From a virus, in IMG/VR virus record IMGVR_UViG_3300048672_000594, positions 1 through 43,150 of that record: a stretch of DNA of 43,150 nucleotides. One strand, 5' to 3'. The notes beneath the pieces were generated by a model. It did not search any database, was not told the DNA's origin, and saw only the letters and a program-made list of their open reading frames with translations. Position 1 is the first letter of the stretch; each line of letters opens with the position of its first letter. Of the stretch, positions 18,711 through 38,305 are shown piece by piece. Position numbers and translations under genes: made by a program.

Positions 18711-20338
18711 GAATACTTTTATTTATAACACTATTGCTGCTAGGCTTCAATAGTTTTTCGCAATCAGTAATCACAGAATTATGGAGCAAAGAAGATTCAG
18801 TTGCAAAGCCACGACCAACTATCCCAAGTGGTTACGGTAGTTTATATTACAATAAATATAAAGGAGAATGGTGGAAAGTTGAGAATGGTGTAAGAACCAA
18901 AGCGTTTAATGCGGCTGGTGGGGGCGGTGGTACTGTTACCGGTTCTGGAGCTTCTAATCAACTTACTTATTGGTCCACAGCCTCAGCTGTAGGCGCATTA
19001 AACACATCTACTTATCCTTCCCTCACTGAGATAAGTTATATCAAAGGAGTTACATCCGCCGTACAAACACAGTTAAATACAAAAGTATCTGGTTCATTAA
19101 CTTCTGGATATATACCAAAAGCTACTGGAACAACCACATTAAGTAATGGTGTTTTTTATGATACAGGTACAAAAGTAGGTTTAGGTACTACCACACCAGT
19201 TGGTTATGTTCATATAGTAGCGCCTGTAAATTCTAATACACTAACACTTCAACAAAGCGCTGCTACAGCAGGTTACCAACAAATACTTTTTAGTGTTGCA
19301 GGAAGCACAGACGGTACGTCAGGCAATGGTGCTAGTATCAGAAGTACCACAAATAGAAGTTCAAATGCATTTTCCACTTTAGAATTTTACACGTCTCCGG
19401 ACGCGTCTGTGTCTCCAGTTAAGGCAATACACATTGATGGTTCTCAGAATGTAGGTATCGGTGGCGTCCCAGTTACTAAATTAGATGTTACAGGCGTGGC
19501 AAGGGCAAGTAGTTTAACAGCCTCTAATTTAACATCTGGTAGAGTGCCTTTTGCAAGCACAGCTGGTGCAATAGTTGATAATTCATCATTTTTGTTCGAC
19601 CAGTCAACAGGTAGATTAACCTCTGATCTTTTTACAGCTACCGCATCATTAAATACTCCTTTTGCAGCAATTACAAATATAGACTTAGGCACAACTAGTA
19701 TTTCTGGTAATAGGGCCATTACTGTAAAATCTTCGACAGCTAATGCAAATCTAACACTGACTGGGTCGCAAGGAAGTGGAACATTTGCTCTTAATGGTGC
19801 CAATATTACTATGACATCAACGAATAATATTGCAATGACGGCTACACTTGTAACTGCTCAGAATATGACTATTTCTACAGCATTAAAGAATACTGCTTTA
19901 ACTTCTGGCCGTGTTGCTACTATTGGAACAGGTGGGTTATTTCAGGATGACGCTGACATGCTATTTGATGGTACGTATCTGAAACTTTCAGCAGCAACAC
20001 CTACTTGGATTGGTCTAGGTGTTGTTACTGGTGGAGATGGGTATAGTCAAAGAATAAAAGGAGGTGATGGAGTAGTTGGTACACCTACAGGTAATTATTT
20101 AGAATTGCAAGGCGGGCCAGCTTATCAGGTTAGCGGAAACAACAATGGGGGTAATGTGAATATAAGTGGAGGGGCTAAACACGGGTCAGGGACTGATGGT
20201 GATATTATAATTGGGGCCGATGGGTCAGGTGTAACAACAGTTAGATATATAATTTTAAAAGGAGTGCCAACATCCTCAGCGGGTTTACCTTCAGGGGCTA
20301 TTTGGAGCAATTCAGGAGTTTTAACAATCGTACCATAA
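18707..20338 (+). CDS. Tail fibre with signal peptide, 1
   Basis: A 543-aa protein. The N-terminus MRILLFITLLLLGFNSFSQS is a Sec signal of Bacteroidota type. The mature part contains the phage-fibre signature SLTEISYIKGVTSAVQTQLN and a GLGTTTPVGYVHIVAP-type head-binding/knob linker, then long Ser/Thr/Gly beta-helix-like sequence. The C-terminus is GAIWSNSGVLTIVP. It is probably a receptor-binding fibre or a surface-displayed homologue; how a signal peptide fits virion assembly is unclear. It is coupled to the holin-like gene by ATGA. Confidence 0.72.
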   Translation: MRILLFITLLLLGFNSFSQSVITELWSKEDSVAKPRPTIPSGYGSLYYNKYKGEWWKVENGVRTKAFNAAGGGGGTVTGSGASNQLTYWSTASAVGALNTSTYPSLTEISYIKGVTSAVQTQLNTKVSGSLTSGYIPKATGTTTLSNGVFYDTGTKVGLGTTTPVGYVHIVAPVNSNTLTLQQSAATAGYQQILFSVAGSTDGTSGNGASIRSTTNRSSNAFSTLEFYTSPDASVSPVKAIHIDGSQNVGIGGVPVTKLDVTGVARASSLTASNLTSGRVPFASTAGAIVDNSSFLFDQSTGRLTSDLFTATASLNTPFAAITNIDLGTTSISGNRAITVKSSTANANLTLTGSQGSGTFALNGANITMTSTNNIAMTATLVTAQNMTISTALKNTALTSGRVATIGTGGLFQDDADMLFDGTYLKLSAATPTWIGLGVVTGGDGYSQRIKGGDGVVGTPTGNYLELQGGPAYQVSGNNNGGNVNISGGAKHGSGTDGDIIIGADGSGVTTVRYIILKGVPTSSAGLPSGAIWSNSGVLTIVP

Positions 20339-31951: not shown

Positions 31952-32137
31952 TTAATCTTTCCAATTTTTTGCTCTTGTCATACTTTCTTCTACAGTCTGC
32001 TTAATTTTAGTAATGGTAGGTAATTTACCTGAACCGTTATTAAAGTTCATAACTGTAATTTCTGAGTGGTATACTAAACCAGTTACAAATGCTGATTTAA
32101 CATGCTTCCAAGTTTCTCTACTAATTGCGCCTTTCAT
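31952..32137 (-). CDS. Small early protein behind hammerhead ribozyme (61 aa)
   Basis: This is the first gene downstream of the ribozyme; its ATG is 15 bases after the ribozyme's last paired base. The sequence KGAISRETWKHVKSAFVTGL, then LPTITKIKQTVEESMTRAKN, is mixed and has no recognised domain. Ribozyme cleavage would leave this gene at the 5' end of the processed mRNA with a leader of about 61 nt. Confidence 0.6.
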   Translation of the reverse strand: MKGAISRETWKHVKSAFVTGLVYHSEITVMNFNNGSGKLPTITKIKQTVEESMTRAKNWKD

Positions 32138-32152
32138 AAAAATATGAATGTT

Positions 32153-32204
32153 TTGGTTTCGTCATTCTGTGACTCATCAGACAAGCCAAGTAGCTTGTTA
32201 CCAA
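32153..32204 (-). ncRNA. Hammerhead ribozyme, type III
   Basis: All conserved parts are present on the - strand. Stem III is UUGGU (32204-32200) with ACCAA (32157-32153). The cleavage triplet is GUA, cut after 32199. Stem I is ACAAGC/GCUUGU (32198-32193 with 32186-32181), loop UACUUG. Core CUGAUGA is at 32180-32174. Stem II is GUCA/UGAC (32173-32170 with 32164-32161), loop CAGAA. GAAA is at 32160-32157. Every stem is perfectly paired, and G10.1-C11.1 is kept. The open end is at stem III. It would self-cleave the leader of the early transcript. Confidence 0.93.
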
Positions 32205-32233
32205 GAGGCAAGGTATAAACCATCCTGCCTCTT
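32203..32233 (-). repeat. Perfect hairpin adjoining the ribozyme
   Basis: AAGAGGCA (32203-32210 on +) pairs perfectly with TGCCTCTT (32226-32233). The interior loop can form an additional GGT/ACC pairing. The stem shares two bases with ribozyme stem III, so full pairing of both is mutually exclusive. It could shield or modulate ribozyme folding. Confidence 0.7.
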
Positions 32234-32476
32234 ATATCTGGTGTTAGCGTCCTCGTCATGTACTTTTGCACTCGTGTTGTGGGTGACTCACATCAGCCTT
32301 ACTTACTTATGCTCAACGTTCTATCCGCTAAGCGTGTCCATCCGAATTTTATCAAGCCTTGGGAAGTGCTCGGAGAATTTACTGGCTACCAGTCCTAAAC
32401 CCCTATTCAATACTGACTGTCAAATCATCTACTTGACTCTGTAAAAGTAGTATATAGGATTGAGACTAAGAAACTT
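32205..32476 (-). other. Long early-operon leader, probably structured RNA
   Basis: No convincing gene occupies this 272-base stretch in either strand. Besides the ribozyme-adjacent hairpin, the - strand can form ACTGG-TAG-CCAGT and a longer TCCGA...TCGGA stem. A + strand frame of 98 codons crosses it but has Cys/Ser/Leu-rich, shadow-like composition. A candidate promoter (TTTC-N20-TACTTTTA) lies at its upstream edge. Confidence 0.5.
32442..32473 (-). promoter_or_regulatory. Candidate Bacteroidota-like promoter for ribozyme-led transcript
   Basis: On the - strand, TTTC (32473-32470) and TACTTTTA (32449-32442) are separated by 20 bases, close to the TTTG-N(17-23)-TAnnTTTG consensus of Bacteroidota primary promoters. 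The TACTTTTA element recurs in other control regions of this genome. Transcription would start near 32435, just upstream of the structured leader. Confidence 0.4.
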
Positions 32477-32905
32477 TTAGCGACTTTTTTTGACTTTTTT
32501 TTCTTCCTCTAAAAGTCGCATTTCCACAGCAATCTGACACTTTTTGCGGGTAGGGTGGAAATAAAAGGGTAAATGGTACTTACGTTCAAAGGTTTTGATT
32601 AACTCTTGTAGGCCGTGTGTGCTGAACTTTCGCTCCTTTCCGTATGGGAAACGCTTATTAATAAAGTCATCGAGTGTGCCTTCCACAAACACTTCGATCT
32701 TGATCTGGTAGTACGCGGCCCGCCAAAGTTCATACTTGAACCTACCATTTCCTTGTACTAGCGTTCCATATAAATCTTGTAGGCTCTTACGCTCGATGTG
32801 AAAAATACCCTCCAGTTCTTTTGTTGTATAGTCGCCTACCTCCAACTTTCTTTTAGTTGTTGTCCAGTATGGAAGTTGTTCGCGTGTGTCTGTAATTATT
32901 TTCAT
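32477..32905 (-). CDS. ERCC4-type nuclease
   Basis: A 142-aa structure-specific nuclease of the ERCC4/Mus81 fold. Motifs: DTRE at residues 6-9, VGDY at 23-26, IERKSLQDL from 37. Together these make the GDX(n)ERKX3D signature. ATG 32905 overlaps the upstream stop as ATGA and is preferred to a TTG at 32917. The basic C-terminus (EEEKKVKKSR) may bind DNA. A role in resolving recombination or replication intermediates with the PD-(D/E)XK nuclease is inferred. Confidence 0.85.
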   Translation of the reverse strand: MKIITDTREQLPYWTTTKRKLEVGDYTTKELEGIFHIERKSLQDLYGTLVQGNGRFKYELWRAAYYQIKIEVFVEGTLDDFINKRFPYGKERKFSTHGLQELIKTFERKYHLPFYFHPTRKKCQIAVEMRLLEEEKKVKKSR

Positions 32906-34340: not shown

Positions 34341-34535
34341 TGCGGTAATTGTTTAAATTGTTTAAATTGTTTATTTCGTTGCAGCAGTTTGCTACGGTAT
34401 AAAAGTAAGCAATTTTTATCAGCGCGCAACGGTTTAAAGTTTTACAAAGTTTCTTAAACTTTAAATTTTACCAAAAGGTTTACTTTTACGCACCGTAAAG
34501 TTTACTTTTACCCCCACTAAACAAAAAACCCCATT
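34341..34535. promoter_or_regulatory. Divergent control region between SSB and replication genes
   Basis: This 195-base AT-rich gap separates the - strand SSB gene from the + strand replication operon. It holds three tandem 9-mers (34347-34373), an inverted repeat TTTAAAGTTT/AAACTTTAAA (34433-34442 and 34456-34465), and a 12-base direct repeat GTTTACTTTTAC at 34478-34489 and 34500-34511 (22 bases apart). TTTA-N20-TACTTTTA (34479-34510) could serve as the + promoter. No gene seen. Confidence 0.7.
34347..34373 (-). repeat. Three tandem 9-mers in SSB leader
   Basis: Read on the - strand, TAAACAATT is repeated three times without gaps, ending 6 bases before the SSB start codon. It is unstructured and A/U-rich. 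It could enhance initiation in an SD-poor host or serve as a binding site for the protein itself. Confidence 0.85.
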
Positions 34536-35090
34536 ATGAAAAATAATTTTATGGTCGACATTGAAACGCTTGGAACACGCTCCTACTCTATAATATTGTC
34601 TATCGGGGTGGTCGCATTTGATTTAAAAACTGGAAATACTGGAGACGAGTTTTATCGTACCATAGATGTGGCCTCTAGTAAAGAGGTTGGTCTTACCTCT
34701 GACGCCAGCACCGTTGAATGGTGGCGCAAACAAGATAAAAGTGTTCGAGACGCACTGACAAAAAACACAGCACACATCCACCAAGTACTCACCCAACTTT
34801 TAGCGTGGTTTGACATGCAAACTTATGAGCGTTTTATGTGGGGCAATTCTGCACGCTTTGATTTAGGCTTACTTGAAAATGCTTATGAGCGATGTAAACT
34901 TATCCCACCGTGGGCATACTATAATGAAAGGTGTTGTCGCACCATTGTAGCATTGAATCCAGAAATAAAAAACAGTTTGCCAAAACCAACTGGTGCCCAC
35001 CATCCAATTATTGACTGCAAACATCAAATCGACTACATTGTTAAAACAATACAAAGCCATGAAGGAAAAGAAAACAACAATCTCGTTTAA
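34536..35090 (+). CDS. DEDDh 3'-5' exonuclease
   Basis: A 184-aa DnaQ-type exonuclease: Asp8 and Glu10 in MVDIETLG, Asp109 in GNSARFDLGLLE, and His155/Asp160 in the H-x4-D ending. This matches the small phage/Rv2179c-type RNase T family. It may proofread or process DNA or RNA ends beside the DNA polymerase, which carries its own exonuclease domain. First gene of the + strand replication operon. Confidence 0.85.
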   Translation: MKNNFMVDIETLGTRSYSIILSIGVVAFDLKTGNTGDEFYRTIDVASSKEVGLTSDASTVEWWRKQDKSVRDALTKNTAHIHQVLTQLLAWFDMQTYERFMWGNSARFDLGLLENAYERCKLIPPWAYYNERCCRTIVALNPEIKNSLPKPTGAHHPIIDCKHQIDYIVKTIQSHEGKENNNLV

Positions 35091-36974: not shown

Positions 36975-37604
36975 ATGAAAACACGAATCCAATGGAAAAC
37001 CTATGTGGTAAATGTCAAAGACATAAAGCCTACGCCAAACAATTACAAAATCAAAACAGCGCTTGGTAAGGAGCGCTTAAAACACACGCTGAAAACTTAC
37101 GGCCTCGCAGGTGCGGTGATTTGTAATTGGGGCGGCAAAGTAGGAGACACGAAAAACATAGTACTTGTGGACGGTAACTCACGCGTGGAGGAGGAGCTTG
37201 CTGCTGGTACGAAAACAATCGAGGCATCGCTTCCGGATAGACCACTTACACCAGCGCAATACAAAGAGTTCAGTGCTATGATTGATTTTGCCAAAGCAGG
37301 CGAGGTTGACATGGATAGAATTGAAAAAGAACTCGGCACCACCAAGGGCTTCTTTGAGTCGTATCGATTGGAGCCACCACCAGATGTACTCGCAAAACTT
37401 GGAGCACAAGCTCCTAAAGGCCCGAAGCCTACGATACAAACAGAAGAGAAGGTTGTGGTAGAAACAGATGAACGGTCTATTACATTGTTTTTTACAACCA
37501 AGCAAGAGGCAGAGTTTAGGAAGATGGAGGAAAGACTTAAGAATAAGTTTAAAACAATCAGCACATCGGACACAGTTCTTAAGGCATTTAAAAAACTTAT
37601 ATGA
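36975..37604 (+). CDS. ParB/Srx-like N-domain protein
   Basis: A 209-aa protein. The pattern VVNVKDIKPTPNNYKIK, then RLKHTLKTYGLAGAVICNWG and LVDGNSRVEEELAAGTKTI, matches the ParB-like domain (cf. ParB nuclease/CTPase N-domain). A long helical segment and an acidic linker (PKPTIQTEEKVVVETDE) lead to a basic C-terminus. Phage members often partner with modification or replication genes; the next gene is a DNA methylase, overlapped by ATGA. Confidence 0.75.
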   Translation: MKTRIQWKTYVVNVKDIKPTPNNYKIKTALGKERLKHTLKTYGLAGAVICNWGGKVGDTKNIVLVDGNSRVEEELAAGTKTIEASLPDRPLTPAQYKEFSAMIDFAKAGEVDMDRIEKELGTTKGFFESYRLEPPPDVLAKLGAQAPKGPKPTIQTEEKVVVETDERSITLFFTTKQEAEFRKMEERLKNKFKTISTSDTVLKAFKKLI

Positions 37605-38305
37605 GATATATGGGAAGCAAAGGTAGAATTGCAAAGCATATTTTGCCGATTATACTAAAAGACCGTAAAGCTGGTCAATGGTACGTGGAGCCTTTTTGTG
37701 GTGGGTGTAACACGCTTGACAAGGTCGAAGGCTTGCGTATTGGTGCGGACATTCACCAAGAGCTTACTGCATACTTTAGTGCGCTAGTAAGCGGGTGGCT
37801 TCCACCTAAATACATTAATGAGGATGAGTATAATCTTGTAAAAAAACACGGCTCGCCTGAATTGCGCGGTTACGTAGGATTTACGTTGTCCTTCGGTGGT
37901 AAGTTTTTTGGTTCACAAGCCCGCTCACTAAAAATTAAAGGCTCGTATGAATCACTTGATACATTAAACAGGCAAGGATACAGTAATGCATTACGACAAC
38001 AAAAAAACTTGAAAGGCGTGGTTTTTAAAAACTGCAATTATTATGATTTACGTATACCCGATAATTCAATTATATATTGCGACCCACCTTATGCTGGTAC
38101 AACAGGCTACTCAAAGGGTAGCTTTAACCACAACCAGTTCTACGATTGGCTGCGCTTGCAACGCGCCAAGGGCCACTCAATTTTTATATCCGAGTATGGT
38201 ATGCCAAAAGACTTTAAGTGTGTTTGGCAAAAAACAATTGCAAACAATTTAAACGCAGTACAAGGAAAGGGTAAGACTGTAATTGAAAAACTTTTTACAT
38301 TGTGA
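37601..38305 (+). CDS. D12-class DNA adenine methyltransferase
   Basis: A 234-aa N6-adenine methylase. RYMGSKGRI lies at the N-terminus, EPFCGGCN at 30-37 (AdoMet-binding, FxGxG type), and catalytic DPPY at 161-164. The length is near the Dam family minimum. The recognition site cannot be read from sequence. It likely protects phage DNA from host restriction or marks origins. GTGA overlap with the next gene. Confidence 0.92.
   Translation: MRYMGSKGRIAKHILPIILKDRKAGQWYVEPFCGGCNTLDKVEGLRIGADIHQELTAYFSALVSGWLPPKYINEDEYNLVKKHGSPELRGYVGFTLSFGGKFFGSQARSLKIKGSYESLDTLNRQGYSNALRQQKNLKGVVFKNCNYYDLRIPDNSIIYCDPPYAGTTGYSKGSFNHNQFYDWLRLQRAKGHSIFISEYGMPKDFKCVWQKTIANNLNAVQGKGKTVIEKLFTL

Follow-up and report, generated by a model that had tools for sequence, protein, structure and literature searches.

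Self-cleavage within a 5' UTR alters the 5' end of an mRNA in the case of the glmS ribozyme, and in retrozymes and viroid-like RNAs circles are produced by hammerhead ribozymes (HHRs). A 2011 study described hammerheads in phages, one of them located 13 nt upstream of the start codon of an early gene; it put forward the idea that hammerheads cut long phage transcripts, and proposed transcript splitting for those flanking genes (PMC3088659). According to a 2017 review, the role of hammerheads in prokaryotes and phages is open, and they are linked to phages and to small genes of unknown function (PMC6155905).

The hammerhead analyzed here lies in an IMG/VR virus record of 43,150 nt, the whole of which is referred to as the window. 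As in glmS-type elements, self-cleavage in the 5' UTR would change the mRNA 5' end, but the fold is different and the window offers no ligand evidence. With Rfam family RF00008 (Hammerhead_3) it shares the core CUGAUGA...GAAA, the A15.1-U16.1 pair, the NUH triplet and the open stem III, while the subfamily to which we assign it differs from RF00008 by the loop II sequence CAGAA and by other stem I loops. HHphage of the haloviruses HF1/HF2 is likewise a DNA-virus hammerhead, found 13 nt before the start codon of an early gene (PMC3088659); HHphage has an atypical core insertion and precedes the helicase gene of an archaeal virus, whereas the window element has a canonical core, promoters that look Bacteroidota-like and an upstream leader. 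That hammerheads are already known in phages, as noted in a previous sequence-only reading of this DNA, is thus established (PMC3088659). A literature search outside of which most subscription papers lay gave no report describing a fixed geometry, linked leader RNAs or hammerheads in Flavobacterium phages (see below); the first two of these features look new.

The hammerhead in the window and its genomic surroundings

The window belongs to a tailed phage, with terminase, portal, major head protein, tape measure and tail genes on the plus strand and replication genes around 33-41 kb. A gene for a D12-class N6-adenine DNA methyltransferase (Pfam PF02086) is found at 37601-38305. On the minus strand, a 339-nt gap (32138-32476) separates an ERCC4-type nuclease gene (32477-32902, minus strand) from a co-directional run of small genes with a Dda-like helicase. 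This is the longest non-coding gap of the minus-strand gene run, in agreement with the sequence-only reading. The first gene downstream, a 61-aa ORF (31952-32137, minus strand), encodes a protein without relatives in IMG/VR, and neither a near-exact search of IMG/VR with a 31-mer of the hammerhead nor a blastn search of the hammerhead region against cultured phages gave a match.

The hammerhead occupies positions 32153-32204 of the minus strand and reads, 5' to 3', UUGGUA^ACAAGCUACUUGGCUUGU CUGAUGA GUCACAGAAUGAC GAAACCAA, where ^ marks the predicted cut. The 5' arm of stem III, UUGGU (32204-32200), pairs with ACCAA (32157-32153) and is followed by A17 (32199). Stem I (32198-32181) is formed by ACAAGCU (32198-32192) and GGCUUGU (32187-32181) around the loop ACUU. 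Then come the core segment CUGAUGA (32180-32174), stem II with its loop, GUCA CAGAA UGAC (32173-32161), and GAA (32160-32158), which together with A15.1 at 32157 makes up the core segment GAAA (32160-32157). Stem III has 5 bp including A15.1-U16.1 (32157-32200), stem I 5-7 bp, the last being U.G, and stem II 4 bp. The invariant core CUGANGA plus GAAA, the NUH triplet GUA and three stems, of which III is open and I and II are closed, are those of a type III hammerhead. No extended pairing between the stem I loop and the CAGAA loop is obvious from the sequence. Hammerhead numbering places the cleavage site between A17 (32199) and A1.1 (32198), matching the 5' end at 32198 predicted earlier, and the 3' end of the element lies 15 nt upstream of the ATG at 32137, the spacing that had also been reported before.

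A descriptor for type I, II and III hammerheads recognizes a single one in the window, and 1,334 first-order Markov windows (57 Mb) matching its dinucleotide composition contain none; for the core alone (CTGATGA-N4..24-CGAAA), the expectation is 0.09 occurrences per window. With core, stems and GUA triplet directly readable, the earlier description of a complete type III hammerhead therefore holds. The Rfam type III model, which had been proposed as a check, does register the element, at 16.7 bits, but this is below the gathering score of 48.5, and an Rfam scan of the window at the gathering threshold gave no match. The low score could be taken to indicate a chance resemblance or a dead relic. 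However, among the subfamily loci searched with RF00008 only L227 yielded a hammerhead match at the gathering threshold, so the low score is a limit of the model, and the threshold is not a feature of the fold. A subfamily covariance model (R1) built without the window gives 58.2 bits and an E-value of 1.7e-15 as its sole match in the window, this E-value being optimistic and not fully independent because the window had contributed to the scan pattern. Given the empty Markov windows, the intact core and the family-wide covariation described below, a relic is very improbable, and a chance motif was rejected. Judged from its sequence, the element qualifies as a genuine type III hammerhead.

A phage hammerhead subfamily with near-constant spacing to the start codon

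Viral contigs commonly contain hammerheads. A first hammerhead pattern matched at least 120 stretches, and among the matches listed the descriptor recognized 128 type I, 34 type III and one type II motif at 124 loci; 26 of 33 type III motifs, again among the matches listed, end no more than 40 nt from an ATG-started ORF. In three phage contigs (L111:1336-6896, L112:1258-2955 and L047:544-2939), type I hammerheads form arrays of five to eight copies over a few kb.

A second scan of viral contigs for the loop II CAGAA variant returned 62 loci. Once the window is added, type III accounts for 59 of the 63 sites, leaving 58 further type III members besides the window. The scan pattern fixes the core, the closing pairs and loop II, whose invariance arises by construction, while it imposes neither the spacing to the start codon nor covariation at the remaining stem pairs. 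Across 30 distinct members without the window, pairing holds in 99.1% of the cells of stems I, II and III. Double changes were counted in 153 cells, compared with 36 in shuffled data and no more than 18 with a slid partner. Members of the subfamily are partly interrelated, and these counts do not represent independent events. A scan of bacterial and archaeal genomes revealed one real hammerhead, in an uncultured Firmicutes bin (L264); seven further matches are not hammerheads by the descriptor, and no host assignment was obtained from the matches.

The geometry relative to the start codon was determined for 52 non-redundant members with a recognizable start. The 5' UTR that would be left after cleavage measures about 58-63 nt in 44 of them, with a mode of 61 nt (20 cases), and the gap between GAAA and ATG is 15-20 nt in 46. 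In the window this 5' UTR (32138-32198, minus strand) is exactly 61 nt, so that both subfamily traits, the CAGAA loop and the after-cut 5' UTR of about 61 nt, are present. The first genes after the hammerhead fall into 41 clusters without detectable similarity to each other; hence the spacing is conserved although the gene is not. A near-constant distance in front of unrelated genes suggests that these hammerheads trim the front end of phage mRNAs, and since the constrained quantity is the distance from cut to start codon, the downstream mRNA would appear to be the point of the cleavage.

The key observations, namely the motif, its non-randomness, the covariation of its stems and the near-fixed start-codon distance in many phages, make it on balance probable that this type III hammerhead acts in cis, cleaving the transcript during its synthesis and so providing a long early-type operon with its mature 5' end. 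RNA polymerase would most likely start at a promoter-like site just past the nuclease gene and transcribe a leader of about 237 nt followed by the hammerhead, which, as its complete core implies, would cut between 32199 and 32198. The downstream mRNA would then carry a 5'-OH followed by the hairpins of stems I and II within its 61-nt 5' UTR, and the leader would be released with a 2',3'-cyclic phosphate end. Once stem III (5 bp) has lost the strand contributed by the leader, the stretch running from GAAACCAA to the AUG, the presumed landing site of the ribosome, would be freed. We infer cleavage activity and the transcription start as well as any effect on translation or stability; for mRNA stability the 5'-OH end could be neutral.

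Hammerhead-made circles, as in retrozymes and viroid-like RNAs, would offer a different explanation, in which paired hammerheads release RNA circles. The search for tandem or paired copies found a single hammerhead in the window and one per record in the eight members searched whole, and a circular element would not account for the near-fixed relation to the start codon. We consider a retrozyme-like or circular-RNA element exceedingly improbable, and it was discarded on the single copy.

The upstream leader and the fate of the 5' product

The sequence-only reading had suggested that the ribozyme splits an operon, i.e., that a read-through transcript is cut where the nuclease gene gives way to the small genes, giving the two halves separate fates. 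The two blocks are indeed co-directional, most type III hammerheads of other phages lie between close genes, 20-50 nt past the upstream ORF (among the matches listed), and splitting is the role proposed for gene-flanking hammerheads (Perreault 2011; PMC3088659). However, a Bacteroidota-like promoter element, TTTC-N20-TACTTTTA (32442-32473, minus strand), begins 3 nt past the stop codon of the nuclease gene. As it is located between the nuclease gene and the hammerhead, the 5' product is more likely a leader of about 237 nt (32199-32435, minus strand, its start deduced from this element) than the nuclease mRNA. The window contains 12 copies of the 8-mer TACTTTTA where 4.1 would be expected, a count reached in none of 100 shuffles; the SSB gene and the divergent gene at 34536 both have it upstream as well. 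Tandem TTTACTTTTAC repeats (34481-34510, plus strand), located in the divergent gap before the latter gene, are probably promoter or operator sites.

The closest relatives of the ribozyme also argue against splitting, as most subfamily members carry the hammerhead at the end of a long noncoding leader and not behind an upstream gene. The median upstream distance to the next ORF of at least 60 aa is 705 nt, with less than 100 nt in 8 of 46 members; in the window, the upstream side of the gap measures 272 nt. A TAnnTTTG element is found 80-330 nt upstream in 23 of 45 members (mean 6.4 and maximum 14 in 300 shuffles), and the promoter-like element of the window is two positions off TTTG/TAnnTTTG. 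Operon splitting is accordingly weakly supported and rather unlikely, and removal of a leader the more likely outcome.

Function might instead reside in the leader itself, as a noncoding phage RNA that owes its 3' end to the hammerhead. Subfamily leaders are long, noncoding and mosaic, sharing modules in varying combinations. One of these modules, a 26-mer, was found in five viral contigs, always together with a subfamily hammerhead (5/5), and another contains covarying helices (28 double-changed cells versus 7.0 in shuffles) that possibly include a pseudoknot. The leader of the window contains no same-strand ORF of at least 50 aa and no Rfam match at the gathering threshold, is a sequence singleton without a blastn match to other leaders, and does not match R2, the covariance model of the second of these modules, which is absent from many other members too. 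Leader plus hammerhead are not unusually stable (folding z -1.06). Moreover, leader families vary widely while the distance from hammerhead to ATG is nearly fixed, which points to constraint on the downstream side. A leader serving as the product is thus unlikely.

A structured module is located upstream of the hammerhead in the leaders of L214, L220, L243, L251, L254, L256, L257, L272 and others. It consists of a GGGUA[loop]UACUC hairpin, the loop of which can pair with a downstream AGAC-like stretch, followed by a covarying stem that surrounds a CCU-AAAUA-GGG-type hairpin. The members searched gave no match in Rfam.

Adjoining the ribozyme, a hairpin AAGAGGC..GCCUCUU (32203-32233, minus strand) is predicted, which the sequence-only reading had regarded as a competitor. 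The hairpin is present, but it shares only two nucleotides (32203-32204) with stem III, and the hammerhead fold with a shortened hairpin lies 1.3 kcal/mol above the minimum in secondary-structure prediction without tertiary contacts, so that competition would be weak and the two structures are predicted to coexist mostly. Alternatively, this hairpin or another state of the leader could switch cleavage on and off. In the same kind of prediction, stem III loses to the flanking fold, its pair probability falling from 0.9 alone to 0.04 with 60 nt of upstream sequence. The small energy gap, calculated without tertiary contacts, and the wide spread of this effect over other members, among which the window ranks 12 of 47, make a regulated ribozyme quite improbable.

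More tentatively, and as a possibility that we rate rather low, Bacteroidota phages may use an exchangeable cassette of promoter, structured leader RNA and hammerhead, in which the leader acts early, e.g., on the polymerase like put/nut RNAs or in trans, and is then detached to leave a standard 5' UTR of about 61 nt before whichever gene comes next.

Relatives with and without the hammerhead

Four relatives of the phage (L002, L003, L004 and L127) are colinear with the window and encode DNA polymerases of 41-68% identity. They contain no hammerhead at the corresponding place, and a search of the whole records with the subfamily model found none elsewhere. As these four relatives do without it, the hammerhead is not essential to this genome type and, judging from the comparison, would be an exchangeable part of it. 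Homologous phages with disrupted, uncompensated stems had been named as grounds for refuting the ribozyme; this test does not apply in that form, as the colinear relatives lack the whole element and other phages keep covarying stems.

The corresponding gap holds nothing comparable in L002 and a noncoding stretch of about 450 nt in L127 (6555-7022), for which there was no Rfam match up to E 3. In L003 and L004 it is a noncoding stretch of about 200 nt with a strong fold (z -3.06 for L003). Within it, GAGUACAG..CUGUACUC encloses two hairpins in a compact fold resembling a three-way junction (approximately L003:6852-6905 and L004:6937-6990), which ends about 20 nt upstream of an ATG and is a candidate for another structured, possibly self-cleaving element.

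The subfamily is also represented among cultured phages. In the elemovirus group of Flavobacterium phages (host Flavobacterium sp. BAL314) there is an unannotated subfamily hammerhead, which in phage elemoA 7-9A (MT497017.1) is located at 19085-19137, scores 65.7 bits with the subfamily model and lies 15 nt upstream of the first gene in a run of small genes. Like the window, elemoA 7-9A thus has the hammerhead at the head of a small-gene run, with an after-cut 5' UTR of about 62 nt. Unlike in the window, the core is CUGAAGA and the leader comes from another module family, and no colinearity between the two phages was seen. A subfamily with a near-constant distance, linked leaders and a cultured member makes the role of these hammerheads testable, in particular whether the cut sets the 5' end and the translation of the early operon and what job the released leader has. 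In the leader region of elemoA 7-9A (MT497017.1 19215-20068, corresponding to L272:3068-3921), four small minus-strand CDS are annotated opposite to the strand of the hammerhead, and these may be spurious gene calls in noncoding DNA.
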